The notes under the pieces are model-generated. The model made no database searches. It was not told the origin of the DNA and saw only the letters and a program-made list of their open reading frames with translations. The translations under genes were made by a program, and so were the position numbers. Below, one piece after another: positions 1-14,709 of a stretch of DNA of 64,000 nucleotides. Origin of the DNA: Methylopila jiangsuensis. Lineage in GTDB: Bacteria; Pseudomonadota; Alphaproteobacteria; Rhizobiales; Methylopilaceae. The stretch lies in the NCBI RefSeq assembly GCF_027922305.1, contig NZ_BSFK01000010.1, positions 372,001-436,000 of the forward strand. The letters run 5' to 3'. Every line of letters starts with the position of its first letter. The stretch's first letter is position 1.

Positions 1-779
1 AAGGCCGCGGGCCGGCCCGACACCTCCACGATCCACACCAGCCGCTCGTCCAGCAGCGGCTTGATGGACTTCGCCAGATGGTCGAGCTCCGCGGCGTTCA
101 GCGGCGTGAAGCCCCAGTTCTCCGACCAGGCGTCGTTGAAGATGTCGATGATCGTGCGCAGCTCCTCGTCGTAGCGCTTCCAATCAAGGGGCCGCACCAC
201 CACGCCCTCGGGCAGGGGGCGGTCGATGATGCGCTGCACGGCCTTCGGGAACGGCGTCTCCATGCGGTAGAGATAGGCGTAGAGGTCCATGGCCTTGACG
301 TAGCCCTGCTCCTCGATCCGCTGCCCGGCGTAAGGCGGATCGTGCGGCATCATCAGCATGGGCGGCGTGTCGAAGCCGTCCACCAGCAGGCCGCTCTCCT
401 CGTTGATGTTCAGGTTGAACGGCCCGAGCGCCTCGGCGCGGCCGCGCGCCTTCAGCCAGGTCTCCGCGGCGCGGAACAGGGCCGCGAACACGGCGGCGTC
501 GTTCTCGGCGGCGATCAGGCCGAAATGGCCGGTCTCCGGATGCCGCTTGTCGGCCTGGGCGCTGATGCGCCCCACCGGAACGCCGTCGCGCAGCGCCAGG
601 AAGAACTGCGCCTCCATGGACTGGAACAGCGGGTTGTGCTTCGGCGACAGCGCCTGGCGGCGTTCGAGGATCAGCTTCGGAATGTGGTTCGGGTCGTGGG
701 CGGCGAGGCGGTCCGGCAGGGTGATGAAGCGGTCGAGGTCGCGCGCGTTCGCGACCGGCAGGATCTCGATGGCGCTCAT
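1..779 (-). CDS. bcerS: bacterial ceramide synthase-like GNAT acyltransferase (3' end cut by window)
   Basis: The visible 259 residues start at an ATG whose ATGA overlaps the stop of the upstream LptG-like gene, which implies translational coupling. The protein looks like the large GNAT-fold family often annotated simply as N-acetyltransferase. It has the conserved block GPFNLNINEESGLL near residue 120, followed by a DTPPMLMMPHDP stretch. In Caulobacter a member of this family is the bacterial ceramide synthase, which N-acylates the sphingoid base. The specific function is inferred from that family and from the serine palmitoyltransferase, ACP and ceramide-kinase-like genes nearby. The stop codon and C-terminus lie before position 1. 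A non-sphingolipid GNAT role is the main alternative. Confidence 0.75.
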   Translation of the reverse strand, partial: MSAIEILPVANARDLDRFITLPDRLAAHDPNHIPKLILERRQALSPKHNPLFQSMEAQFFLALRDGVPVGRISAQADKRHPETGHFGLIAAENDAAVFAALFRAAETWLKARGRAEALGPFNLNINEESGLLVDGFDTPPMLMMPHDPPYAGQRIEEQGYVKAMDLYAYLYRMETPFPKAVQRIIDRPLPEGVVVRPLDWKRYDEELRTIIDIFNDAWSENWGFTPLNAAELDHLAKSIKPLLDERLVWIVEVSGRPAA

Positions 780-1897
780 CGATGAGGCTCCGGGGAGAGG
801 GCGGGGGTGGCGCGTCGGGCGCGGGGCCGGGTCATGCCGCGCTCCATGCGCGAGATCATGGCGCCGCCCAGGGCGGCGAAGACGATGATGGAGGTCCACG
901 ATCCGACGGCGGGAGGGATGACGCCCGTGCCGCCGAGCGTGGTGAGCAGTCCGTCCGACAGAAGAAAGGCGAGACCGAGGCCGAGCCCGAGGAAGCCGTA
1001 GCGCGCCGAGCGGGCGTCGCGCCAGTTGATGAAGGCGGCGGGCATGGCGAGCAGCAGCATGATGGCGGCCGAGAGCGGCGCGGCGTAGACCCTGAGAATC
1101 AGCGTCTCGTAGAAGCTCGCCGGCGCGTTGGACACGCGCTCGCCCTGCAGCGTGGCCTGCGCCGCCGCCGACGAGACCATCCCGCCCGGCGTGAGCGACG
1201 CCACCGCGTCGGAGGGGCGGAACCGGGTCTCCCACACGCCGTCGGCGGGCGTGCGGACGTTGAAGCTCTCCTTCAGCCACGACACATGGGTCGCGCCGGC
1301 GAGCGTCCAGCGACGGTTCTCGTAGCGCGCCTCCCGCGCGGTCAGGCGGCCGGTCGCCACCTTGTCGGCGTTGCGCTCGTAGACCTGAAGGTTGGTCAGC
1401 CGCCGGCCCCGGTCGGCGAGGGCGTCGAAGGAGATCACGTCCGGGCCGAGCCGCAGCCAGGCCGGCTTGTCCGCGTCGATCTTGGGCGCGGGGCCTTCCG
1501 CCCACCACACCGCGAGCCGCTGCTCGGTCTTCGGCAGCACCGCGTCCAGCAGCACGCAATGCAGGATCCCGAGCACGAAGGCGCCCGGGAACATCAGCAC
1601 ATAGAGGTCCCAGGTGCTGCGGCCGGAGGCGCGGGCCGCCACGATCTCGCTGTTGCGGGCCAGCATGCCAAGCGTCATCACCGCGCCGGCGAGCGCGCCC
1701 AGCGGCAGGGCATGGGCGATCAGCGTCGGCGTGCGCAGGGCGAGATACTGCCCGAGCCCCGCCAGACCGTCGCCCCGGTCGAGGATGTCGCCGGCGTTGT
1801 CCACCAGGTCGAGCACTTCGGCGATGGCGGCGAGAATCAGCGTCGCCGTCACCGCGAGCGTGAAGAATTTGGCGCTGAAGTATCGGAGCAGACGCAT
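776..1897 (-). CDS. LptG-like YjgP/YjgQ-family permease, sphingolipid-locus paralogue
   Basis: This 373-residue inner-membrane protein has the LptF/LptG architecture: three N-terminal membrane segments (about 10-30, 57-80, 100-122), a periplasmic jellyroll-like region (about 130-260) and three C-terminal membrane segments (about 267-346). The canonical pair extracts LPS with LptB and LptC. This copy lies 10 bp downstream of a second LptF-like gene and overlaps the ceramide synthase gene by ATGA. The housekeeping lptF/lptG pair normally sits beside lptD, surA or pepA, none of which is here, so this is probably a second pair. The likely cargo is a sphingolipid, which is inference. No ATPase or LptC-like partner is in the window. 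Confidence 0.85.
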   Translation of the reverse strand: MRLLRYFSAKFFTLAVTATLILAAIAEVLDLVDNAGDILDRGDGLAGLGQYLALRTPTLIAHALPLGALAGAVMTLGMLARNSEIVAARASGRSTWDLYVLMFPGAFVLGILHCVLLDAVLPKTEQRLAVWWAEGPAPKIDADKPAWLRLGPDVISFDALADRGRRLTNLQVYERNADKVATGRLTAREARYENRRWTLAGATHVSWLKESFNVRTPADGVWETRFRPSDAVASLTPGGMVSSAAAQATLQGERVSNAPASFYETLILRVYAAPLSAAIMLLLAMPAAFINWRDARSARYGFLGLGLGLAFLLSDGLLTTLGGTGVIPPAVGSWTSIIVFAALGGAMISRMERGMTRPRARRATPALSPEPHR

Positions 1898-1907
1898 GGG
1901 AACGGGA

Positions 1908-3146
1908 TCAGCCGGCGGGAAGCGGTCGGCGGCGGCGGAACAGCCGCGCGAACGGTCGGACGAGACGGGCGCCGGCCGCGCTGAGACCGTCCATGGCGCG
2001 GGAGATGACGGTGTCGCCGGGGCGGTCGGTGCTGGTGGCGTAGAGCAGCGCCGACAGGCCCGCCAGCAGGACGAGCGGGCCCCAGCACAGCAGCGGCGCA
2101 GGGCCGGCCCCCTTGTGCGCCAGCGTCTCGCCGAGCTGCAGCACGTTCTGGAACGCCAGCACCGACAGCGCCGCCACCGCCATGTTCGCCACCCGGCTCT
2201 GGCGGCGCATGGTCATGGACAGCGGCACGATCAGGAACGGCAGGAACACGAGCGCCGCCGCACGCGCCAGCCGGGCGTGGAACTCGGACGACAGCTTGCG
2301 GTCGGGCGTCGCGGAGGCGGGATCGCCCATCTCGCTCCACAATTCGCTGAGCGTGAGCTCGCGCTCGTTGCCGCCGCGGGGGCGGAACGGCGGGGCCTCC
2401 AGCGCGAAGGTCTTGTCGAACACCAGATCGGTGAAGCGCAGCGAACTCGGCCGGCCGCCGGGCTGGGTGTCGCGCAGCACCACGCCACTGTGCAGGCGGA
2501 GCTGCAGGCGCTTTCCGTCCGGCGTCAGCTCCAGCGTGCCGGCGGCGGCGGTGGTCAGCGTCTCGCGCGCGCCGGCGCGGTCTTCGATGAACACGCCGGT
2601 GAGCCTGCGCCCGGTGGCGTCCACCGCGTCCGCGGTGACGGTGAGCCCGTCGCGCACCGAAATGAACGCCTCCGCCGGCGCGTGCGCCCGCCAGGCGTAG
2701 GCCACCGAGGAGTTCAGGATCTCGCGGTAGGCGTAGCGGCTGTGGGGGTCGATGTAGCCGGTGACGGCGATGGTGCCGAGCCCGAGCAGGGCTCCGAGCG
2801 CCACCAGCGGCCGGGTCAGCCGCCAGACCGAGACCCCGGAGGCGAGCATGGATTCCAGCTCCGCCCCCTGCGACATGCGCGAGAAGGCCGAGAACACGCC
2901 GAGCGCGAAGGCGGCGGGCACGGCGAAGCCGAGATAGTGCGGCACCAGATTGGCGGAGAGCGCGAACACCAGAATCACCGGCGCGCCGGCCACCGCCAGC
3001 ACGTCCACCAGCCGGAGGATCCGCTCCAGCAGCAGGCCGAGCAGCACCACGCCGAGCGCGATCGCCATCGGCTTCAGCGTCAGGCCGAGCACGTAGCGCT
3101 CCAGCACGCCGAAGCGCACGCCGGCCGCCTGAGTCCCGGTCCTCAC
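1908..3146 (-). CDS. LptF-like YjgP/YjgQ-family permease, sphingolipid-locus paralogue
   Basis: This is a permease of about 412 residues with the six-helix plus periplasmic-domain LptF/LptG organisation. N-terminal helices lie at about 20-45, 60-80 and 105-125. The periplasmic domain spans about 135-285, and C-terminal helices start at an ALVFLPFLIVPLSM segment. I chose the GTG at 3146 because its GTGA overlaps the stop of the HIT gene. An upstream GTG at 3158 is also in frame. The C-terminus ends in an Arg-rich tail. It forms an operon with the LptG-like gene and the ceramide synthase, so it is probably one half of a dedicated lipid-extraction permease rather than the housekeeping LPS transporter. 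Confidence 0.82.
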   Translation of the reverse strand: MRTGTQAAGVRFGVLERYVLGLTLKPMAIALGVVLLGLLLERILRLVDVLAVAGAPVILVFALSANLVPHYLGFAVPAAFALGVFSAFSRMSQGAELESMLASGVSVWRLTRPLVALGALLGLGTIAVTGYIDPHSRYAYREILNSSVAYAWRAHAPAEAFISVRDGLTVTADAVDATGRRLTGVFIEDRAGARETLTTAAAGTLELTPDGKRLQLRLHSGVVLRDTQPGGRPSSLRFTDLVFDKTFALEAPPFRPRGGNERELTLSELWSEMGDPASATPDRKLSSEFHARLARAAALVFLPFLIVPLSMTMRRQSRVANMAVAALSVLAFQNVLQLGETLAHKGAGPAPLLCWGPLVLLAGLSALLYATSTDRPGDTVISRAMDGLSAAGARLVRPFARLFRRRRPLPAG

Positions 3147-3580
3147 GCCACGGGCCACAGCTTGGCGATCTCCGCCTTCAGCGCGGCGATGGCGCCCGCG
3201 TCCAGCTCCGGCCCGTCGCCCAGCGCCGGCGGTCCGGGCCAGCCGGCGTCGGCGAAGGCGAGGCCGGCGAAGGCGCGCGGCGCCTCGTGCCGGGGAATGA
3301 CGTGAAAGTGCACGTCCGGGTCCACCATCATCAGCATCAGGTAGTTGATCTTGTCGTAGGACGTCAGCCGCTTCAGCGCCGGCTCCAGCCCGGCGACGAT
3401 GCGGCCGAGATCCGCGAAGGCCTCGGGGCTCAGGGCGCCGAAGGCGTTCGCCTCCTCCTTCGCGACGAGGACCAGCGAACCGAAGCCCGGCTGCTTCGGC
3501 CGCACCTGCACGGACCAGTGGTCGGTCTCCCGGACGAGCGTTTCCGGGTAGCCGAATTTCGTCATGGTGGCGTTGGGCAT
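3143..3580 (-). CDS. HIT-family nucleotide-binding hydrolase
   Basis: This 145-residue protein ends in the histidine-triad motif HFHVIPRH (about residues 100-107), matching the H-phi-H-phi-H pattern with the last position varied (HFHVIPR). HIT proteins hydrolyse or transfer nucleoside monophosphates from adenylylated or dinucleotide substrates. The gene is first in the minus-strand operon, and its stop overlaps the LptF-like start. That placement suggests it handles a nucleotide intermediate made by the neighbouring lipid-head-group genes, for example a CDP-lipid or an adenylate by-product; this is inference. A general clean-up hydrolase is equally possible. It diverges from the CDP-alcohol phosphatidyltransferase across a 97-bp gap. 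Confidence 0.85.
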   Translation of the reverse strand: MPNATMTKFGYPETLVRETDHWSVQVRPKQPGFGSLVLVAKEEANAFGALSPEAFADLGRIVAGLEPALKRLTSYDKINYLMLMMVDPDVHFHVIPRHEAPRAFAGLAFADAGWPGPPALGDGPELDAGAIAALKAEIAKLWPVA

Positions 3581-3677
3581 GGGCGGGCGCGGATCAGGCT
3601 TGCGGACGGTGGGGGCGAAGCGGCTGGCAGGATAGGCGTTTCGCCGCTAAACGACAGCTTCAATAAACGAGCATGAC

Positions 3678-4838
3678 ATGGACGGCGTTATGACGACCAA
3701 GGATGGCGGCCCGGCGGCGGCGCGCATCGCGGTGCTGCTGGGGCGCTCCGAGGTGCGGATCTGGGGCATGAGCGCGCAGGAGCGGCTGACGCGCCAGCTC
3801 GGCCGCGCCGGCGCGACCGACGTGCGCTCCGCGCTCGACGGCCTCGCCCCCGACGCGCAGGTGCTGCTGCTGAAGGTGGACCACGCCTATGAGCAGCGGC
3901 TGGTGGACGCGCTCGCCATCCGCCCCGGCGCGGCGCTGCTGGCCGAGGGCGCGCCGGTCGCGGCCCATGTGACGGGCGCGCAGGCGGAGGCCACGGCGGC
4001 GGCGCTGCTCGCGGGCGACGCCGCGGCGCTGCCTGCGGGCGTCGAGGCGCTCGATTCGGAAGGGCTCGGCGGCTCCTACAACTTCAAGCTGCGCAAGCGC
4101 GAGGTCGCCTATGTGATCCCGCTGAACCCGGGGACGGTGGCGGAGGTGGAGAACCGCAGCTTCGCCGGCTCCTACAAGGGCGTCACCGATCTCGTGACCA
4201 AATACGTCTGGCCGAAGCCGGCCCAGATCGTCACCAAATGGTGCGCCGAGCGCCGCATCACCCCGAACGCGGTGACGCTGGTCGGCCTCGCGCTGGTGTT
4301 CGTCGCCTTCTGGGCGTTCTGGAACGGGCATTACCTGTCCGGCCTCGTCGCCGCCTGGATCATGACCTTCCTCGACACCGTGGACGGCAAGCTCGCCCGC
4401 GTCACGCTCACCTCCAGCAAGGTGGGCGACGTGATGGATCACGGCATCGATCTGGTGCATCCGCCGTTCTGGTGGTGGGCCTGGATCGTGGGCCTGCCCG
4501 CCGCCGGCCTGCCGGTGGAGCATGCGGGGCTGATGGTGTTCATCATCTTCGCGGGCTACATCCTGCAGCGGGTGGAGGAAGGGATCTTCTCATGGGCCTT
4601 CGGCATGCACATGCACGTCTGGCGCCCGTTCGACAGCTTCTTCCGGCTGATCACCGCCCGCCGCAACCCGAACCTGCTGATCCTGACGCCGTTCGCGCTG
4701 ATCGGCCGGCCGGACCTCGGCATGCAGATCGTGGTGGTCTGGATCGTGATCTGCTTCGTCGTGCATCTGGCCCAGATCGTTCAGGCGCTGGCGGCGCGCC
4801 GGCGCGGGCCGATCACCTCGTGGCTCGACGCCGCGTGA
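3678..4838 (+). CDS. CDP-alcohol phosphatidyltransferase with N-terminal nucleotidyltransferase-like domain
   Basis: This is a 386-residue membrane enzyme. Residues 233-258 carry the complete CDP-OH signature D-x2-D-G-x2-A-R-x8-G-x3-D-x3-D (D233, D236, G237, A240, R241, G250, D254, D258). It is flanked by membrane helices at about 200-230 and 260-380. Residues 14-165 form a cytosolic domain whose start (RIAVLLGRSEVRIWGMSAQER) resembles the N-terminal part of fused IPC-type synthases. The enzyme would displace CMP from a CDP-activated substrate. It starts a plus-strand operon with the lipid kinase and Tam41-like genes, so ceramide head-group transfer is the likely role by context. The exact alcohol acceptor cannot be read from sequence. 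Confidence 0.85.
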   Translation: MDGVMTTKDGGPAAARIAVLLGRSEVRIWGMSAQERLTRQLGRAGATDVRSALDGLAPDAQVLLLKVDHAYEQRLVDALAIRPGAALLAEGAPVAAHVTGAQAEATAAALLAGDAAALPAGVEALDSEGLGGSYNFKLRKREVAYVIPLNPGTVAEVENRSFAGSYKGVTDLVTKYVWPKPAQIVTKWCAERRITPNAVTLVGLALVFVAFWAFWNGHYLSGLVAAWIMTFLDTVDGKLARVTLTSSKVGDVMDHGIDLVHPPFWWWAWIVGLPAAGLPVEHAGLMVFIIFAGYILQRVEEGIFSWAFGMHMHVWRPFDSFFRLITARRNPNLLILTPFALIGRPDLGMQIVVVWIVICFVVHLAQIVQALAARRRGPITSWLDAA

Positions 4839-4845
4839 GGGCCGC

Positions 4846-5778
4846 ATGAGCCGGCTCGGGGTCATCGCCAACGGCCGGAGCTGGCGCGCGGCCAAGGGCG
4901 GAGCGCCCCGCCGGCCCGCGGGCGTTCCCTTCGAGGCGCCGGGCGATCTCAACGGCTACGCGCCTGCGCTGGCGCGGCTCAAGGCGGCGGGCGTGGACAC
5001 GCTCGCGGTGGTGGGCGGCGACGGCACCCTGCGGGAGGTGATGAGCGCGCTGCCCTCGGCTTACGGCGCAAGCCCGCCGGCGCTCGCGCTGGCGCCTTTC
5101 GGCAAGACCAACGCTGCCGCCGCCGATGTGGGCGGATGCGGCCACGGGCCGGACGCGCTGGAGCGGCTCGCCGGGGCGCTGGCCTCCGGCGTCCCGCTGA
5201 AGCGCAGCGAGCGCCGGCCGATCGCGGCCCGGTTCGACGGCCGGGCGGTGCAGGGCTTCGTCCTGGGCTTCGGCGCCTTCGAGCGCGCCACCCGCATGGT
5301 GGACAGCCGGGTGCATTCCAGGGGCTTCGCCCAGCGCCTCGGGGTCGCCTTCGGCGTGGCGGAGGCGGCGCGGGAGCTGCTGACCGGCCGGGAAGGCGCC
5401 GGCTGGCGCCAGGGCGTGGCGGCGGCGGTCGCGGCCGACGGCGCGGAGGCCTCCGACGACGACCGGTTCTTCTTCCTCGCCACCAGCCTGCGGCGCTTCA
5501 TGCTGGGGCTGTGGCCGTTCTGGGGCGAGGGGGAGGGCGCCATCGCCTGGACCGACGTCTCCGCGCCGCCCCACCGGCTGGCCTCGGCGCTGCTGCCCGC
5601 GGCGCGCGGCCGGGCGACCGACTGGATGCGCGCCAACGGCTACCGCAGCGGGCGGGCCAACCGGATCGACGTGGCGCTGCGCGCGCCCTTCATCATCGAC
5701 GGCGACAGCTTCTCCGCCGGCGCGGACGGGCGGATCGCGATCCAGGCCGGCGCGCCGCTGACCTTTCTCGCGCCATGA
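4846..5778 (+). CDS. cpgB: diacylglycerol-kinase-fold lipid kinase, probable ceramide kinase
   Basis: This 310-residue protein has the GGDGT nucleotide-binding motif at residues 57-61 and a second conserved LAPFGKTNAA segment at 82-91, both diagnostic of the DAGK catalytic family. It lacks a signal peptide. The divergent Caulobacter ceramide kinase belongs to this fold and sits in a comparable position between a CDP-alcohol transferase and a nucleotidyltransferase. Here the gene starts 7 bp after the CDP-alcohol transferase and overlaps the next gene by ATGA. The proposed reaction is ATP-dependent phosphorylation of ceramide to ceramide-1-phosphate. Substrate identity rests on gene context; diacylglycerol or sphingoid-base phosphorylation is the alternative. 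Confidence 0.82.
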   Translation: MSRLGVIANGRSWRAAKGGAPRRPAGVPFEAPGDLNGYAPALARLKAAGVDTLAVVGGDGTLREVMSALPSAYGASPPALALAPFGKTNAAAADVGGCGHGPDALERLAGALASGVPLKRSERRPIAARFDGRAVQGFVLGFGAFERATRMVDSRVHSRGFAQRLGVAFGVAEAARELLTGREGAGWRQGVAAAVAADGAEASDDDRFFFLATSLRRFMLGLWPFWGEGEGAIAWTDVSAPPHRLASALLPAARGRATDWMRANGYRSGRANRIDVALRAPFIIDGDSFSAGADGRIAIQAGAPLTFLAP

Positions 5779-6761
5779 GCCTGCCTCGCGCCATGAGCCT
5801 TGATCCCGCCATGAGCGCGCCGGCGGAGACCGCGCTTCGGGACGCGGTGGCGCGGGAGCTGGCCGCGCCCCAGCCGGACGCGGTGCGGGCCTTCGCCGCC
5901 GCGCTCGGCGCGCGGGCGAAGGGCGGCGCGGCGGGCGTGCTGTTCTACGGCTCGGCGCTGCGCACCGGCGAGACCGACGGCCTGCTCGATTTCTATGTGC
6001 TGCTGGACGATCTGGCGGGCTGGGACGCGGGCCGCCTCGCCCGCGCCGGCGCCGCGATCCTGCCGCCGAACGTGGAATACGCCGAGCACGCGACGCCTGA
6101 CGGCGGCCGGCTCCGGGCCAAGATCGCCATCATGACGCTGGCGCAGTTCCGCCGCCACGCCCGCTGGCGGAGCCGCGACACCACCATCTGGACCCGGTTC
6201 TGCCAGCCCGCGGCGCTGGCCTTCGCCCGCGACGACGCGGCAAGGGACGGCATCGCTCAGGCGGTGGCGGTCGCCGTGCGTTCGGCGGCGTGGTGGGCGG
6301 CGCGGCTTGGGCCTGAGAGCGGCCCGGCGGAGGCGTTCTGGACCGCCCTGTTCCGCCGCACCTACGCCTCGGAGCTTCGGGTGGAGAGCGCGTCGCGCCC
6401 GTCCGACATCGTGGCCCGCGCCCCGGAGCGCTTCGCGCGGCTTCTGGAGCTGGCCTGGACCGCGGACGGCCTTCCCTTCACGCGCGACGGCGAGGGCGCG
6501 CTCGCGCCCGCGGTTGGGCCGGACGAGCGGATGCGGGCGGAAAGAGCGTGGAAAAAGCGACGCCGCCTGGCGAAGCCGCTCAATCTGGCGCGGCTCGCGA
6601 AGGCGGCGTTCACGTTCTCAGGCGGCGCGGATTACATCGCCTGGAAGATCGAGCGGCACTCGGGCCACAAGATCGAGGTCACGCCATTCCAGCGGCGGCT
6701 CCCGCTCCTTGCGGCAGCGCCCGTGCTGTGGCGGCTGTGGCGCCGAGGCGTTCTCCGCTGA
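5775..6761 (+). CDS. Tam41-like nucleotidyltransferase (phosphatidate cytidylyltransferase-like)
   Basis: This protein has 328 residues, using the ATG at 5775 that overlaps the kinase stop. The open frame extends further upstream, but only inside the kinase gene. Residues 57-80 read FYGSALRTGETDGLLDFYVL, the GS...D arrangement of the nucleotidyltransferase fold as seen in mitochondrial Tam41-type CDP-DAG synthases. A later block (NVEYAEH, then KIAIMTLAQF) fits the same family. Known Tam41 proteins convert phosphatidic acid to CDP-diacylglycerol. Between a ceramide kinase and a CDP-alcohol transferase, this enzyme could make CDP-ceramide. The assignment is by motif and context only. Its 3' end overlaps the convergent serine palmitoyltransferase gene by 83 bp. 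Confidence 0.7.
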   Translation: MSLPRAMSLDPAMSAPAETALRDAVARELAAPQPDAVRAFAAALGARAKGGAAGVLFYGSALRTGETDGLLDFYVLLDDLAGWDAGRLARAGAAILPPNVEYAEHATPDGGRLRAKIAIMTLAQFRRHARWRSRDTTIWTRFCQPAALAFARDDAARDGIAQAVAVAVRSAAWWAARLGPESGPAEAFWTALFRRTYASELRVESASRPSDIVARAPERFARLLELAWTADGLPFTRDGEGALAPAVGPDERMRAERAWKKRRRLAKPLNLARLAKAAFTFSGGADYIAWKIERHSGHKIEVTPFQRRLPLLAAAPVLWRLWRRGVLR

Positions 6762-7995
6762 AGACGGCGGTCGGCCCGGGGAAGGCGCAGACGTTGTTCT
6801 CTTCCGGCAGCAGGCCGAGCTCGCGGCCGACGCGGGTCATCAGCGCCACGGCGAAGTCGATCTGCTCGTCGGTGTGCGCGGCGCTGACGCTGGAGCGCAT
6901 GAAGGCCGACGAATTGGGCGTCGCGGGCGGAAGCGCCAGGTTGAGGTACATGCCCTCCTCCAGCAGCCGCTTCCAGAACATCACCGCCACTTCCGGCTGC
7001 TCCACCATCACCGCCACGATCGGCGAGCACTCCGGCCCCACATGGAAGCCGGCGGCGCGCAGGCCTGTGTAGAAGCGGCGGCTGTTGGCGGTCAGCTTCG
7101 TGCGGCGCTGGGGCTCGGCGCGCAGGGTGCGCAGGGCCGACAGCGTGGACGAGATGATCGCCGGCGGCAGCGACGCGGTGAACATGTAGGGCCGCGAGGC
7201 GAGGCGCAGGATCTCGAAGCCCTCGAGGCTCGAGACGCAGAAGCCGCCCACGCTGGCGAGGCTCTTGGAGAAGGTGCCGACCACGAAGTCGACGTCGTCC
7301 TCCACGCCCTCGCGCTCGGCGAGGCCGCGGCCATGCTCGCCGAGCACGCCCATGGAGTGCGCCTCGTCGACCATGAGATAGGCGCCGTACTCGCGCTTGA
7401 CGTCCACGAACTCCTTCAGCGGCGCGGTGTCGCCGAGCATGGAGTAGATGCCCTCGACCACGATCAGCTTGTCGCCCGGCTGGTCGCCCATGCGGCGCAG
7501 GCGCTTGGCGAGGTCGTCCGGATTGTTGTGGCGGAAGCGCACCACCGGCGCGTGGCCGAGGCGCGAGCCGTCATAGATCGAGGCGTGGCTGTCGGCGTCC
7601 AGGAACAGGTGATCGTCCTTGCCCACCAGCGTCGAGATCATGCCGAGATTGGCCTGATAGCCGGTGGAGAACACCATGCAGTGGGTGTGGCCGTAGAAGT
7701 CGGCCAGCGCGCGCTCCAGCTCCTGATGGCCCTTGTAGCTGCCGTTGGCGATGCGCGAGCCGGTGGTGCCGGTGCCGTGGCGGCGGATCGCCTCGATCGA
7801 CTCGGCCTTGGCCTCGTCGTCGAACGTGAGCCCGAGGTAATTGTTGGTGCCGAACAGCAGGGTCTTCTTGCCGTTCACCACGCCTTCGACGCAGGAGATG
7901 ATGTCATCGAACTTCACGGCGAACGGATCGGCGCCGACCTGCTTCAGATGATCATAGCGGTTGTTGAGCGCCGCGAACTTTTCGAGAATCGACAT
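6679..7995 (-). CDS. spt: serine palmitoyltransferase
   Basis: This PLP-dependent alpha-oxoamine synthase condenses L-serine with an acyl thioester to 3-ketosphinganine. With the ATG at 7995 it has 438 residues. The PLP lysine lies in GTFSKSLASVGG (K244), with H137 in DADSHAS, and D210 and H213 in MVDEAHSMG. I chose this start because a GGAG lies 11 nt upstream, whereas the ATG at 8004 has the same GGAG only 2 nt away. The ACP stop is one base upstream, so the genes are coupled. SPT rather than KBL or BioF is supported by the partner ACP and the ceramide genes. The last 27 codons lie antisense to the Tam41-like gene. Confidence 0.93.
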   Translation of the reverse strand: MSILEKFAALNNRYDHLKQVGADPFAVKFDDIISCVEGVVNGKKTLLFGTNNYLGLTFDDEAKAESIEAIRRHGTGTTGSRIANGSYKGHQELERALADFYGHTHCMVFSTGYQANLGMISTLVGKDDHLFLDADSHASIYDGSRLGHAPVVRFRHNNPDDLAKRLRRMGDQPGDKLIVVEGIYSMLGDTAPLKEFVDVKREYGAYLMVDEAHSMGVLGEHGRGLAEREGVEDDVDFVVGTFSKSLASVGGFCVSSLEGFEILRLASRPYMFTASLPPAIISSTLSALRTLRAEPQRRTKLTANSRRFYTGLRAAGFHVGPECSPIVAVMVEQPEVAVMFWKRLLEEGMYLNLALPPATPNSSAFMRSSVSAAHTDEQIDFAVALMTRVGRELGLLPEENNVCAFPGPTAVFSGERLGATAATARALPQGAGAAAGMA

Positions 7996-7996
7996 A

Positions 7997-8248
7997 TCAC
8001 GCATTACTCCGCAGCGTTTCGATCGTCTTCGCGAGATCGTCGACGGTCACGACGCTGGCCATGTCATGCAGCGGGATCGAGATGTCGAACTTGTCCTCGA
8101 GCGCCATGCAGAAATTCATGACTGCAATGGAATCGAGTCCAAGGTCGTTCACGATGTTCATATCCGTCCGAAGTTCGACCTTACGATTGATCACGGTCTC
8201 CAGTGCTTCAGATATGTCCGCGATCAACTGGTCTTTTGCTTCACTCAT
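7997..8248 (-). CDS. acpR: dedicated acyl carrier protein of the sphingolipid locus
   Basis: This 83-residue acidic ACP has the phosphopantetheine attachment motif NDLGLDSIAV at S40. I chose the ATG at 8248, preceded by GGACGGGAAG, because the longer reading frame adds 30 residues with no ACP character. In sphingolipid-making alphaproteobacteria a specialised ACP carries the acyl group used by serine palmitoyltransferase, loaded by a partner synthetase. This gene is directly upstream of spt, and a synthetase gene follows upstream at 8663-10354. Its base composition is lower in GC than its neighbours. Confidence 0.9.
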   Translation of the reverse strand: MSEAKDQLIADISEALETVINRKVELRTDMNIVNDLGLDSIAVMNFCMALEDKFDISIPLHDMASVVTVDDLAKTIETLRSNA

Positions 8249-8352
8249 CTTCCCGTCCTGGCGGGCGCTCCGACTTACGATACTTGAGCAGGCGCAAAAT
8301 ATGAGCTTGTCGCCATTCTGTAAAGTTTCGGTCATCACCCGAAAAAAGTGAT

Positions 8353-8381
8353 GTTAATCAACGACTTGTGGGTGTCGTCAA
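8353..8381 (-). promoter_or_regulatory. candidate sigma-70 promoter of acp-spt
   Basis: On the minus strand TTGACG (8376-8381) is followed after 17 bp by ATTAAC (8353-8358). This places transcription start about 100 bp upstream of the ACP ATG. The -35 box is strong and the -10 box weak (3 of 6 matches). The surrounding 8249-8560 stretch is clearly more AT-rich than the flanking genes. No gene was recognised in the 414-bp gap between the ACP and the acyl-ACP synthetase. Confidence 0.4.
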
Positions 8382-8662
8382 CCATGTTTCCGGCCCCGGA
8401 TCGGCCTGCGTGCGTGTTTGCAAAGCACTGTTGCGCAAATGTCCGGGAAGCCGCGGCGCCTGTTTTGTGGGCTTGCTTGATCGGTCTCCGACAGACGGCC
8501 CGTGGCGCGAGGGCGTGAAAACGACTGAAATTCCAGCAAAGCCGAGGGTGGTTAACAAAGCCTCCATGCGGCGCCGCATTCCGCCGAGGCGCCGGTCGCC
8601 CAAGAGCGTGGCGGCGGCGAAAGGCGCCGGGCTGAAATGAAACGTTGCGGAAAGTGTTCCCC

Positions 8663-10354
8663 TCAGGCCTGCGCGGCCATGGCGCGGTAGAGCTCCCGCG
8701 CCCGGCTGCGGCTGAGCTTGCCGGAGGATGTGACGGGCAGCGCGTGGGCGCCCACGAGCCGCACGACCACCGGCACGCCGAAGCGCTGGCGCAGCAGTCC
8801 GGCCACGTCGTCCGCCAGTTTCGACCGCGTCTCCGGGTCGGAGGACCGGCACTGCACCAGCGCCGCCACCTCCTCGCCCTCCGCGCCGTCCACGGAGAAG
8901 GCGGCCACGTCGCCGGAGCGCAGGCCGGGAATCTCCCGCTCCGCGGCCCATTCCAGATCCTGCGGCCAGAGGTTGCGGCCGTTGACCAGGATCAGGTCCT
9001 TGGCGCGGCCGGTGATCACGATCTGGCCGTCGGCCACGTAGCCGAGGTCGCCGGTGTCGAGCCAGCCGTCGGCGACGGCCTCTGCGGTCGCGTCCGGATC
9101 GCGGAAATAGGCGGTCATCAGGCTCGGACCGCGGGCGAAGATGCGCCCGACCGCGCCCGCCGGGACCACCGCGCCCGCGGCGTCGCGGGCCTCGATGGCG
9201 TGGCCGGGCAGGGCGGGGCCGCACAGCACGAACTCGCGGGCGCGGGCCTCGTCCCCGGCCGGGCGCGCCGCGCCCTCGTTCTCCAGCGCGTCCAGATCGA
9301 GCGTCTCGGTGCGCAGGCCTTCGCCCAGCGGCGCGAAGGACAGCGCCAGCGTCGCCTCGGCCATGCCGTAGCTCGGCGTCAGCGCGCCGGCGTCGAAGCC
9401 GTGGGGGGCGAAGCGCTCCACGAAGCGGCGCAGGATGTGCGGGCGGATCATGTCGCCGCCGATGCCGGCCGTGCGCCAGGACGACAGGTCGAGGTCCTTC
9501 AGGTCGAGCGTCGCGGCGCGCTGGGCGCAGAGCTCGAAGCCGAAGCTCGGGCTGTAGGAGATGGTGGCGCGGTTGCGGGCGATCAGCTCCAGCCACATCA
9601 GCGGCCGGCGGGCGAAGTCGCGGGTGGCGAGGTAATCCACCGACAGGCCGGCCACCACCGGCGTGAGCAGGAAGCCGACCAGCCCCATGTCGTGGTAGAA
9701 CGGCAGCCAGGAGACGCAGCGGTCGGCGGGCGTGGTCTTCAGCCCGTGGCGGCTGATGGCCTCGGCGTTCGCCATCAGCGCCGCGTGCGTCACCATGATG
9801 CCCTTGGGGAACTGGGTGCTGCCGGACGAGAACTGCAGATAGGCGAGGTCCTCCGGCGCAGGCCGGGGCAGGTCGCCCTCCGCGGCGTCTTCGGGCAGAT
9901 CGGCGAGCGCGCCGACGAACCGCAGCGGCAGGCCGGCGGCGGCCTCCTCGAGCCACGCCTTCAGCGGCGCCGGCGCGAAGGCGGCCGCCGCGTCGGCGCG
10001 CTCGATCATGCGGCGGATGTGGGCGAGGTAGGCCTCGCGCCCGCCGAAGGCCATGGGCAGCGGCATGGGCGCCGGGATCAGCCGGGCGTAGCCGCAGGCG
10101 AAGAACAGCCGGACGAAATCGGCCTCGGTCTCGGCGATCAGCGCCACCCGGTCGCCGGGCGCAAGGCCCGCCGCCAGCAGCCGGCGCGCCAGCGCGCGGG
10201 CGTCGTCGCGCAGCCGCGCGTAAGGAAGGCTCTCCAGCAGCGCCCCGCGGGCGGAGTGGAAGTCGAAGCCGCGATCGCCGTCCGCCGCCCGATCGAGCGC
10301 GTCGAGAATCGTCGCGGGGGCGGCGGGGCGGGCGGAAACGTAAGGATCGGTCAT
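8663..10354 (-). CDS. aasR: acyl-ACP/acyl-CoA synthetase (FAAL-like adenylate-forming enzyme)
   Basis: This is a 563-residue ANL-superfamily enzyme. The adenylate P-loop is FSSGSTQFPKG at about residues 175-185. The GWLDTGDLGY and GRAKDLI motifs precede the C-terminal lid, and the catalytic lysine lies in SSGKLSR near residue 547. It would activate a free fatty acid as acyl-AMP and load it onto the dedicated ACP for serine palmitoyltransferase. In Caulobacter and Rhodobacteria such an enzyme (AasR) pairs with the sphingolipid ACP; equivalence here is inferred from gene order. FAAL enzymes for other lipids share these motifs. It is 309 bp beyond the longest possible ACP frame and 414 bp from the chosen ACP start. 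Confidence 0.85.
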   Translation of the reverse strand: MTDPYVSARPAAPATILDALDRAADGDRGFDFHSARGALLESLPYARLRDDARALARRLLAAGLAPGDRVALIAETEADFVRLFFACGYARLIPAPMPLPMAFGGREAYLAHIRRMIERADAAAAFAPAPLKAWLEEAAAGLPLRFVGALADLPEDAAEGDLPRPAPEDLAYLQFSSGSTQFPKGIMVTHAALMANAEAISRHGLKTTPADRCVSWLPFYHDMGLVGFLLTPVVAGLSVDYLATRDFARRPLMWLELIARNRATISYSPSFGFELCAQRAATLDLKDLDLSSWRTAGIGGDMIRPHILRRFVERFAPHGFDAGALTPSYGMAEATLALSFAPLGEGLRTETLDLDALENEGAARPAGDEARAREFVLCGPALPGHAIEARDAAGAVVPAGAVGRIFARGPSLMTAYFRDPDATAEAVADGWLDTGDLGYVADGQIVITGRAKDLILVNGRNLWPQDLEWAAEREIPGLRSGDVAAFSVDGAEGEEVAALVQCRSSDPETRSKLADDVAGLLRQRFGVPVVVRLVGAHALPVTSSGKLSRSRARELYRAMAAQA

Positions 10355-10447: not shown

Positions 10448-12205
<1,758 letters not shown>

Positions 12206-12268
12206 GGTGGCGGGGGCTCGCAAGGTGGACGGCACGGCCGCGAGGCGTAGCCGCAATCGCTCGCCGTC

Positions 12269-13516
12269 TCAAGCCCGCCGGGGCGCGGCGGGACGCGGGC
12301 CGAGCAGGACGTCGAGATAGGCGTCCGCCGCGGCGTCCCAGGAGAAGAACGCGCCGCGCCGTTTCAGCCCGTCCGAATCCCGCGGGGCGGCGAGCCGGCG
12401 CGCCATCGCCTCCGCCAGCGCGTCCACGTCTCCGACCGGGACCAGCGGACCGTGGCGGCCGTCTTCGAGAATCTCCCGCGGCCCGCTCGGGCAGTCGGTG
12501 GCGACCACCGGGCAGCCGCAGGCGAGCGCCTGCACCAGCACGCCGGGCAGGCCTTCGAAGGTCGAGGACAGCACGAACAGGTCCGCCCGCGCCATGAAGC
12601 GGAACGGGTTGTCCTGAAAGCCGGGGAAGGCCACGTCGGCCGCGATCCCGAGGTCGCCCGCGAGCCGCTCCAGCGCCGCCCGGTCCGGGCCCTCGCCGAG
12701 GATGACGAGGCGCGCGGGCGTGTGAGCCCGGAGCCGCGCGAAGGCGCGCAGCAGGGTGGGGAAATCCTTCTGCGGCTTCAGCTTGCCGACGCCGAGGATC
12801 ACCGGCGGCGCGCCGTCCGCGAACCACGGATGGTCGAGCGGGGCTTCGGCGGCCTGCGCGAAGTCCGGTCCCACCACGGCGTTGTAGATCGTCCGCACCC
12901 GCTCCGGGGGCAGCCCGGCCACGCGGGCGATGTCGTCGGCGACGCCGTGGGAGACGGCGACCACCGCGTCGGCGCGGGGGTAGAACGTCCGGATCAGCGG
13001 AAGCGCGCGCGCCACGCGGGAATCCTCGGCGGCTTCCGCGTCGGACGAGAAGTGGTTGCGCTGGGACAGCACGATCCGGGCGCCGCTTCGGGCGAGGCTT
13101 TCCGCCGCAACCGCTGCGATGTTGCCGTAGTCCAGCGCCGAAAGCAGCGCCGCGGGGCGTTCCCTCCGAAGGTAGTCCGCAAGCCCTGGAATGGCGCCGA
13201 GCGTCACCGGCGCGCGGGGATCGAGCAGCGCGGGCAGGAGCGCCCGGAACGTCGCGGGGCGCCGCCAGGCCGTGGCCCAGGCGCCGAGCGGGGTGCGGAC
13301 GTTGAGGTCCATCACCCGCACGCCGGGCGGGAGCTGCTTCAGGAACGGCCCGGAGGCGCGCGCCAGCACCAGATCGACGGCGTGGCCGCGCTCGCTCAGC
13401 GCCGCGGCCAGATTGGCCATGGAGCGTTCGGCGCCGTTGCCTTTCAGCGAGCGGATGAACAGCGCGAGCCGCGCAGGCGCTTGCGCGACGGACGGTCGGG
13501 ATTCTACAGCCGTCAT
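12269..13516 (-). CDS. GT4-family glycosyltransferase A
   Basis: This is a 415-residue GT-B fold enzyme. The C-terminal domain has GVGKLKPQKDF (donor phosphate contact), RLVILGEGPD, and the GT4 acidic motif FVLSSTFEGLPGVLVQALACG with an E-x7-E-like arrangement. It is cytosolic, with no membrane segment. It is a close paralogue of the divergent glycosyltransferase that starts 41 bp away: both share VLSQRN, VAVS-GVA, an HPWF segment and DCPSGPxEIL. The gene is cotranscribed with the ABC exporter. It probably adds a hexose or similar sugar to a lipid or lipid-linked acceptor. Donor and acceptor are unknown. Confidence 0.85.
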   Translation of the reverse strand: MTAVESRPSVAQAPARLALFIRSLKGNGAERSMANLAAALSERGHAVDLVLARASGPFLKQLPPGVRVMDLNVRTPLGAWATAWRRPATFRALLPALLDPRAPVTLGAIPGLADYLRRERPAALLSALDYGNIAAVAAESLARSGARIVLSQRNHFSSDAEAAEDSRVARALPLIRTFYPRADAVVAVSHGVADDIARVAGLPPERVRTIYNAVVGPDFAQAAEAPLDHPWFADGAPPVILGVGKLKPQKDFPTLLRAFARLRAHTPARLVILGEGPDRAALERLAGDLGIAADVAFPGFQDNPFRFMARADLFVLSSTFEGLPGVLVQALACGCPVVATDCPSGPREILEDGRHGPLVPVGDVDALAEAMARRLAAPRDSDGLKRRGAFFSWDAAADAYLDVLLGPRPAAPRRA

Positions 13517-13557
13517 GCGCGGGCGTCGGTCGGGCTTGCGGTTCGGGTTCGGAGCGG

Positions 13558-14709
13558 ATGCCCAGACACCACATCGCCATCTTCATGTACAGCGTGTCCG
13601 GCGGCGGCGTGCCCCGGCGCAACGTCACGCTCGCCAACGGGCTGGCGGCCGCCGGACGGCGCGTCGACCTCGTGGTCCTGAACGCCGGCGGGGAGATGCG
13701 CGACAAGGTGGATCCCCGCGTCAGGGTGATCGAGCTCGCCGGCCTGCTCACCTGGGCGCCCGGGCTCCGGTCCAAACGGCGGTGGCAGTTCCAGACCGTG
13801 CGCCGGCCGCTGGCGCGCTATCTCGCCAACGAGCGGCCGGACGTGCTGCTCGCCGCCGACAATTACGCCAATCTGGCCGCGCTCGCCGCGCGCGAGATCG
13901 CGAAGGCGACGCTGCCGGTGGTGGTGAGCCAGCGCAACAACGCGTCCGCCTCGATCGCGAAACGCCCCGAACTGGTGGCGGCGATCCGGCGCGACTACCC
14001 TCAGGCCGAGGCGATCGTCGCCGTGTCGGAGGGCGTGGCCGCGGATCTCGTCGGACTGGGCCTGCCGCGCCACAAGGTTCGGACGGTCTACAACCCCGTC
14101 ATCGAAGAACGCTTCCACGACGCCGCCCGCGCGCCGGTGGAGCATCCCTGGTTCGGCGTCCCCGGCCGCCCGCTGCTGCTGGGGGCGGGGCGCATCGGCC
14201 CGCAGAAGGATTTCGAGACCCTGCTCGCGGCTTTCGCCAAGATGCGGGAGGCCCGGCCCGAAGCGCGGCTGGTCATTCTCGGCGAGGGCAAGACCCCGGA
14301 CGCGCGCCCCGAGCTGAAGCGTTTCGCGGAAGGGCTTGGCCTTGGCGAGGTCGTGGACCTGCCGGGCAGGGTCCCCGACGCGGTGCCCTACATCGCCCGC
14401 GCCGACCTGTTCGTGCTGAGCTCCCGCTGGGAGGGCCTGCCGGGGGTGCTGATCGAGGCGCTCGGCTGCGGCACGCCCATCGTCAGCACCGATTGCCCCA
14501 GCGGTCCCATGGAGATCCTCGACGGCGGCCGGTTCGGCCGTCTGGTCCCGGTCGGCGACGCCGAGGCGCTGGCCGCCGCCATGACCGCCGCTCTCGCCGA
14601 GCCTGCGGACCGCGAGCGGCTGAAGGCCCGCGCCGGGCTGTTCACCACCGAGGCGGCGGTGCGGACCTATCTGGCGCTGTTCGACGGGCTGGAGGCGCGG
14701 GGCTCGTGA
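13558..14709 (+). CDS. GT4-family glycosyltransferase B
   Basis: This 383-residue GT-B fold enzyme starts at an ATG preceded by GGAG. Conserved segments are VVVSQRNNAS, GAGRIGPQKDFETLL, LVILGEGK and FVLSSRWEGLPGVLIEALGCG, the last holding the GT4 acidic motif. It is a diverged duplicate of glycosyltransferase A on the opposite strand. The pair flank a 41-bp divergent promoter region. Its stop TGA overlaps a GTG that starts the next gene, so the two are translationally coupled. It is likely to act on the same glycan or glycolipid as its paralogue; sugar specificity cannot be read. Confidence 0.87.
   Translation: MPRHHIAIFMYSVSGGGVPRRNVTLANGLAAAGRRVDLVVLNAGGEMRDKVDPRVRVIELAGLLTWAPGLRSKRRWQFQTVRRPLARYLANERPDVLLAADNYANLAALAAREIAKATLPVVVSQRNNASASIAKRPELVAAIRRDYPQAEAIVAVSEGVAADLVGLGLPRHKVRTVYNPVIEERFHDAARAPVEHPWFGVPGRPLLLGAGRIGPQKDFETLLAAFAKMREARPEARLVILGEGKTPDARPELKRFAEGLGLGEVVDLPGRVPDAVPYIARADLFVLSSRWEGLPGVLIEALGCGTPIVSTDCPSGPMEILDGGRFGRLVPVGDAEALAAAMTAALAEPADRERLKARAGLFTTEAAVRTYLALFDGLEARGS

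Follow-up and report, generated by a model that had tools for sequence, protein, structure and literature searches.

A candidate phosphosphingolipid locus of Methylopila jiangsuensis that follows the gene order of the Caulobacter CPG2 cluster, with no CerR-type reductase found

The closest described system is the cluster for ceramide phosphoglycerate (CPG) and ceramide diphosphoglycerate (CPG2) in Caulobacter. As published, this region spans 17 genes, CC_1168 to CC_1152, comprising five ceramide genes (aasR, cerR, acpR, spt and cerS), six head-group genes (CC_1161, CC_1160, CC_1159, CC_1158, CC_1153 and CC_1152) and genes for transport (PMC11324152). A related locus from Methylopila jiangsuensis is described here, lying in a stretch of 64,000 nucleotides (NZ_BSFK01000010.1, positions 372,001-436,000, hereafter the window) of a source genome of 18 contigs and 3.7 Mb, labelled G000. 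An earlier note had read window positions 1-10354, which initially delimited the locus, as a near-complete sphingolipid locus. It is highly probable that the locus directs the biosynthesis and export of a ceramide-(di)phosphoglycerate-type anionic phosphosphingolipid, that its genes are one by one the orthologues of those in the Caulobacter CPG2 cluster, and that it was probably gained laterally.

Comparison with Caulobacter was made through a locus of Caulobacter segnis (L129), the source of the reference sequences. There the order AasR-CerR-AcpR-Spt, CpgC-CpgB-CpgA, HIT-LptF2-LptG2-CerS-CC_1153 agrees with the published cluster, a calcineurin-like phosphoesterase occupies the CC_1158 position, and CpgD is on the other strand after the MobA-like CC_1153. 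The order CC_1153, CerS, LptG2, LptF2, CC_1157, CpgA, CpgB, CpgC, Spt, AcpR, AasR is common to the CPG2 cluster and the locus in M. jiangsuensis (Table 1), as the earlier remark on a Caulobacter-like arrangement had it, and the window proteins are between 34% (LptG2) and 60% (Spt) identical to their C. segnis counterparts. Orthologues of CpgA, CpgB, CpgC, CpgD, CC_1153 and CerS were all found, and Spt, AcpR, AasR and an LptF/LptG-type pair are in the cluster. Judged by the C. segnis locus, the gene adjoining cerS is the CC_1153 equivalent, and the true CpgD is a COG1213-type gene located elsewhere in all ten genomes of the genus (266-291 bits; C16:210094-210831 in G000; the match in G076 contains an internal TGA), against only 36-37 bits in two genomes without sphingolipid genes.

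The genes were called from an open reading frame (ORF) listing with Pfam and NCBIfam models, and every gene named in the earlier note as part of a contiguous sphingolipid set is present. A chance origin is excluded, because Spt exceeds its model cut-off by a wide interval (676.6 bits against 500) and the same gene order recurs in the eight genus stretches compared (L009 and L041-L047; in L041 the contig stops within the cluster). Among solved structures, the top PDB chains for Spt are themselves Spt (3.6e-132), and the pyridoxal phosphate-lysine motif TFSKSL is present. Catalytic motifs were found in CpgA, CpgB, AcpR, Spt, CpgC and AasR; in CpgA the motif is DxxDGxxAR..GxxxDxxxD, preceded by an unassigned N-terminal domain. 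The core of the earlier reading thus stands, but 'near-complete' conceals a specific gap, the absence of CerR from the locus, and the bounds and gene list require revision: the unit was cut at both ends, a HIT-like gene was missed, and the CC_1153-type and MsbA-like genes lie outside the bounds.

By analogy with the work in Caulobacter, from which the reactions and the lipid product are carried over, AasR would load a fatty acid onto AcpR, Spt would condense the acyl group with serine, and CerS would N-acylate the product of Spt to give an oxidised ceramide. Ceramide would be phosphorylated by CpgB, and CpgC would carry ceramide-1-phosphate onward, perhaps by transfer of cytidine monophosphate (CMP) from cytidine triphosphate (CTP) to form cytidine diphosphate (CDP)-ceramide. 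CpgD, encoded elsewhere, would make CDP-glycerate, which CpgA would use to add a second phosphoglycerate, such that the head group can be predicted to be that of CPG2. For Caulobacter, ions of the CPG/CPG2 type are reported at m/z 704.49 and 872.47. The MsbA-like exporter, with LptF2 and LptG2, would move the lipid outward. This exporter adjoins aasR in all six genus stretches that reach it (L042-L047), in the three named Methylopilaceae loci and on two plasmids discussed below, which suggests a dedicated export route together with LptF2/LptG2. What the sequences themselves establish is which genes are present, their order, motifs and conservation, and that a CerR-type orthologue was not found; the CDP-ceramide step, the part played in export and the oxidation state of the backbone are proposals made here.

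The wider distribution of these genes was surveyed by sampling, with 297 genomes drawn from the order, 385 from the class and 299 from the phylum, and a scan of named genomes covered the best 80 of 589 confirmed matches. Among the matches listed, the nearest named loci belong to Hansschlegelia beijingensis, Chenggangzhangella methanolivorans and a Methylopila assembly, all Methylopilaceae. The genus includes H. beijingensis, whose Spt is identical to that of one genus genome (G170). The attribution of this DNA to a rhizobial alphaproteobacterium is right as regards Hyphomicrobiales, but the Methylopilaceae, whose members are methylotrophs, are not among the classical rhizobial families. CerS and CpgC are found in all ten genus genomes (the CpgC of G215 in two pieces) and Spt in nine; in the tenth (G142) the contig breaks off within the cluster. 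Neither of the two further genera sampled from the family (G269 and G285) gave a match for CerS, Spt or CpgC. Across the order sample, Spt occurs in 40 genomes (E up to 1e-100), CpgC in 30 (E up to 1e-10) and CerS-like proteins in 69 (E up to 1e-20, weaker paralogues included), and CpgC occurs in 42 genomes of the class sample. Ceramide genes are a patchy minority trait of the order and no singular find; the expectation that ceramides would be unusual in Rhizobiales holds for their rarity and not for their uniqueness. A literature search, which covered few subscription papers, found no paper on ceramide and serine palmitoyltransferase in Rhizobiales.

In a tree of Spt sequences, the Methylopilaceae group with Pararhizobium mangrovi within a larger assemblage of Caulobacteraceae, Azospirillaceae and gammaproteobacteria, and the genus sequences are separate from the other sampled hyphomicrobial Spts. 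A single hyphomicrobial Spt clade was rejected by the approximately unbiased (AU) test (p = 0.0074), run on a quick tree of 49 rows selected from 104. The simplest reading is that the cluster was probably gained laterally by an ancestor of the Methylopilaceae group, because the Spts of the genus stand apart from those of other Hyphomicrobiales and two genera of the same family have no matches.

Several points weigh against this overall interpretation. The locus showed no equivalent of CC_1158 or of the Wzx-like CC_1166, for which no genome-wide search was made; in Caulobacter, CC_1158 is dispensable for CPG2 (PMC11324152). Both permeases score below the cut-offs of the lipopolysaccharide equivalog models (LptG 200.8 bits against 240, LptF 177.7 bits against 230). 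The AU test rested on a quick tree containing several long branches. In Caulobacter, CPG forms without CpgA, CpgD or CC_1153 (PMC11324152), hence no transferase is assigned to the use of CDP-ceramide; of the five CDP-alcohol phosphotransferase matches in G000, which include CpgA, none is tied to this step. Finally, a CerR profile found no CerR orthologue in any of the ten genus genomes (best matches 102-122 bits), which leaves a gap in the reference pathway at its ceramide stage.

This last point can be placed in context by 84 loci in which AasR, AcpR and Spt lie collinear within 5 kb: in 69 of them a CerR scores 200 bits or more. The other 15 are ten Methylopilaceae loci (two of which, L047 and L091, are from one strain), L050, whose genome holds CerR elsewhere, and L072, L073, L165 and L167. 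The CerR profile, of 13 rows after a sequence with a stop codon (L082) was dropped from the alignment, was run over 39 genomes. It gave 303-438 bits in 18 genomes with CerR, 116-144 bits in seven genomes without sphingolipid genes and 73-117 bits in four f78 genomes; among 12 named genomes, three Methylopilaceae (one being the same strain as G170) scored 111-116, two Komagataeibacter 103-105 and the other seven 313-423. In a tree, the best matches of nine of the ten genus genomes (G235 was left out) cluster with homologues from sphingolipid-free genomes, away from CerR, in an NDUFA9-like group; G453, with a long branch, diverges basally on the CerR side, and G285 lies apart. Six CpgC-bearing entries (G322, G453, G550, G627 and the Komagataeibacter loci L165 and L167) are without a strong CerR-type match, and the Komagataeibacter genomes contain a weak relative, full-length but split in two (66 and 47 bits), which may be a diverged CerR. 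In G076, G170 and G252, cpgD directly adjoins a housekeeping CerR-like gene. The tree does not support this gene as a replacement for CerR, its product grouping with the homologues of sphingolipid-free genomes, and the 'SDR' of the plasmid pDCB2 was rejected as an alternative reductase, since it scores 370.8 bits as CerR itself.

If the genus has no CerR-type orthologue, then either the pathway halts with the backbone still 3-oxo, or the reduction falls to an unrelated enzyme. The second of these is somewhat favoured: the backbone would be reduced normally by a replacement enzyme, and the final lipid would be an ordinary CPG or CPG2. Every genome searched has several NAD-binding paralogues, the absence of a CerR-type match from two Komagataeibacter and four f78 genomes with CpgC indicates that loss or replacement is not unique to the Methylopilaceae, and, according to a published survey, other proteobacteria that carry Spt have good homologues of the presumptive reductase (PMC9386255). 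No further conserved gene, reductase or other, was found beside the cluster in the compared genus stretches, which tells against a replacement, as does the position in the tree of the best CerR-profile matches.

The role of CpgC is balanced more evenly. A 2025 paper (PMC12275187) and a 2026 preprint (PMC13228409) call its mechanism unidentified, and the product of CpgB is given as ceramide-1-phosphate (PMC10331486). Mitochondrial Tam41, with a nucleotidyltransferase and winged-helix fold, converts phosphatidate and CTP to CDP-diacylglycerol (PMC7018664). A Tam41-like nucleotidyltransferase had been noted by eye in the locus, and the profile tests of this resemblance are mixed and lend it weak support. 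In a blind search of the 299 Pseudomonadota genomes with PF09139, two matches fell below E 0.01, and the better (2.2e-4) is a CpgC encoded beside a lipid kinase gene, whose only match in Pfam is PF09139 (E 1.4e-4, 21.8 bits, cut-off 24); the second (L170) is a sigma-factor-like ORF, taken as a chance match. Aligning the profiles of 27 rows with hhalign gave a score of 24.3, above all of 30 shuffles (maximum 19.45) and collinear over 137 columns, though at a probability of only 4%. The positions conserved in 71 CpgC sequences, D50 and K93 (consensus numbering) included, align in order with the solved Tam41 chains 6ig2 and 7ecd, and the motifs YGS, DF, K, RF..P and Y..(D/E)xR are collinear in the profile alignment of CpgC with Tam41/TAMM41 (PDB 6ig2, 6ig4, 7ecd). 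CpgC is thus perhaps a distant Tam41 relative and a candidate CDP-ceramide synthase; from such a relationship CDP-ceramide would be predicted, by analogy with CDP-diacylglycerol.

Evenly weighted against this is the possibility that CpgC is an enzyme of another kind, not a Tam41-type cytidylyltransferase, which converts ceramide-1-phosphate to CPG differently. The CpgC of the window has no Pfam match at E 10, and only two of 71 CpgCs match PF09139 (E up to 10), neither above the cut-off, with a best E of about 0.01 after correction for 71 tests. With 71 rows (fragments L127 and L153 dropped, L169 and the window protein added) the hhalign score falls to 16.3, exceeded by 4 of 100 column shuffles (maximum 18.9), and a CpgC hidden Markov model does not recognise two Tam41 segments (-0.9 and -1.3 bits). 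A consensus CpgC and three plasmid CpgCs gave no match, PF09139 found none in the source genome, a Tam41 search of plasmids was also negative, and a search for a solved CpgC structure found none. The presumed substrate also differs, being ceramide-1-phosphate rather than phosphatidate. Two results run counter to an unrelated enzyme, namely the identity of the better match in the blind search and the 27-row score exceeding all its shuffles.

The remaining outcome for the backbone is that Spt and CerS alone make a 3-oxo (unreduced) ceramide, with CpgB and CpgC acting on oxidised ceramide. This is possible though rather doubtful. The CerR-profile scores of the genus resemble those of genomes free of sphingolipid genes and not those of genomes with CerR, and in Caulobacter a cerR deletion accumulates oxidised ceramide and one model orders CerS before CerR (PMC11087976). 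A missing orthologue does not equal a missing activity, however, and the use of oxidised ceramide by CpgB and CpgC is an assumption. The Methylopilaceae point to a natural CerR-less background, suited to testing which comes first, ceramide reduction or N-acylation, a disputed point. The boldest combination, in which CpgC is a CTP:ceramide-1-phosphate cytidylyltransferase related to mitochondrial Tam41, phosphosphingolipids are made via CDP-ceramide, and the CerR-less Methylopilaceae do so on a 3-oxo-ceramide backbone, is a speculative and improbable one. If true, CDP-ceramide would be a bacterial liponucleotide parallel to CDP-diacylglycerol, and its formation is a concrete hypothesis for the function of CpgC; no paper joining CDP-ceramide with bacteria was found in the literature search, with its small coverage of subscription papers.

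That the genes serve another alpha-oxoamine pathway (biotin, haem or 2-amino-3-ketobutyrate) together with diacylglycerol phospholipid metabolism can be dismissed as extremely unlikely: BioF, KBL and ALAS share a superfamily with Spt and their models do match it, but at 337.8, 324.4 and 223.6 bits, all below their cut-offs while Spt is above its own, the best PDB matches are Spt, and the acyl carrier protein, AasR and CerS genes stand beside it. For Spt, the outcome that the earlier note named as refuting its reading, a best match to biotin- or haem-pathway enzymes, was thus not observed.

The layout of the locus is given in Table 1. The cerS gene runs past the left edge of the window to G000:C10:371661, the ATG of cpgC overlaps the stop codon of cpgB, and the true start of acpR probably lies further inside its longest ORF. 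A Pfam search with the HIT-like gene product gave no match. The spt and cpgC genes are convergent with overlapping 3' ends (window 6679-6761), and a coding overlap of 77 bases recurs in all nine genus genomes in which both were matched; most Spt matches outside the genus stop at query residues 387-411 of 441. Profile comparison of the N-terminal domain of CpgA with CC_1153, CpgC and Tam41 gave no convincing relation, and with CpgD a short, unexplained match of 29 columns (E 5e-4, probability 32%); the positive control, CC_1153 against CpgD, reached a probability of 93% over 207 columns. Two divergent glycosyltransferase-like genes (identified by eye) adjoin the exporter at window 12269-14709 and are not conserved there in the compared genus stretches.

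Table 1. Features of the M. jiangsuensis locus, in window coordinates unless another stretch is named
Feature	Position	Strand	Evidence or remark
CC_1153-type MobA/CofC-like nucleotidyltransferase gene	L009:6921-7661, just left of window, adjoining cerS	-	C. segnis locus comparison
cerS (CC_1154-type GNAT ceramide synthase), 5' part	1..779	-	start codon 777-779; 55% to C. segnis CerS
lptG2-type permease (CC_1155-type)	776..1897	-	PF03739 2.2e-56; 34% to C. segnis, same position
lptF2-type permease (CC_1156-type)	1908..3158	-	PF03739 3.3e-61; 38% to C. segnis
HIT-family-like gene at CC_1157 position	3143..3580	-	56% to C. segnis positional equivalent; 58% to plasmid gene annotated HIT family
cpgA (CC_1159-type), CDP-alcohol phosphotransferase	3678..4838	+	PF01066 2.5e-11; 51% to C. 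segnis
cpgB (CC_1160-type), lipid/ceramide kinase	4846..5778	+	PF00781 8e-10; GGDGT motif; 38% to C. segnis
cpgC (CC_1161-type), nucleotidyltransferase-like	5775..6761	+	48% to C. segnis
spt, serine palmitoyltransferase	6679..8004	-	NF047599 8.2e-204, 676.6 bits (cut-off 500); 60% to C. segnis
acpR, specialised acyl carrier protein	longest ORF 7997..8338	-	PF00550 2.5e-11; GxDS site present
acpR-aasR gap	8339..8662	.	cerR position in most related loci; too short for cerR here
aasR (CC_1165-type), fatty acyl-AMP ligase / acyl-AcpR synthetase	8663..10354	-	NF006624 824.6 bits (cut-off 600); 59% to C. segnis
MsbA-like ABC exporter, candidate lipid flippase	10448..12256	-	PF00664 + PF00005; adjoins aasR

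A second locus was observed in the source genome at C16, about 71.7-81.8 kb (L040:1729-11821). It encodes a highly reducing type I polyketide synthase (KS-AT-DH-MT-ER-KR-ACP) together with an alpha-oxoamine synthase (37% to Spt) and another CerS-like GNAT (31-33%), and these three occur together in all seven genus loci examined. The set has the look of a route to a ceramide-like lipid derived from a polyketide, and may resemble rkpA/rkpG.

Comparable clusters are carried by two plasmids. One, pDCB2 of Diaphorobacter sp. JS3051 (L212, L213; NZ_CP065408.1, about 41-68 kb), was classed as a conjugative IncP plasmid and has a Tn3 transposase close by; the other, pPNP1 of Pseudomonas sp. JS425 (L210, L214; NZ_CP073662.1, about 64-86 kb), was classed as non-mobilizable. 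Their genes include those for Spt, AcpR, AasR, CerR, CerS, CpgA, CpgC (annotated as a hypothetical protein in both records), CpgD, a lipid kinase, Lpt permeases and an ABC exporter. Like the locus in M. jiangsuensis, they combine the same pathway genes with an MsbA-like transporter; unlike it, they have CerR and a metallophosphoesterase gene, and the gene order is different. The cerS of pPNP1 is in two pieces, one on either side of an IS5 transposase gene. These plasmids show that a phosphosphingolipid pathway can occupy mobile DNA, and the cluster on the conjugative-type plasmid suggests that a pathway for an outer-membrane lipid may be movable as a unit.

What goes beyond known work is that no CerR-type reductase was found in the genus, and the hypothesis relating CpgC to Tam41; the CPG2 gene set is also extended to a family of the Hyphomicrobiales. 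Compared with C. segnis, the M. jiangsuensis cluster is without CerR, CC_1158 and CpgD, the last being unlinked in G000, and has an MsbA-like ABC exporter beside aasR where C. segnis has a Wzx-like protein (Pfam match below cut-off). Hence this is a cluster of a known kind, real and conserved, varied by the loss of CerR and by a different putative flippase.

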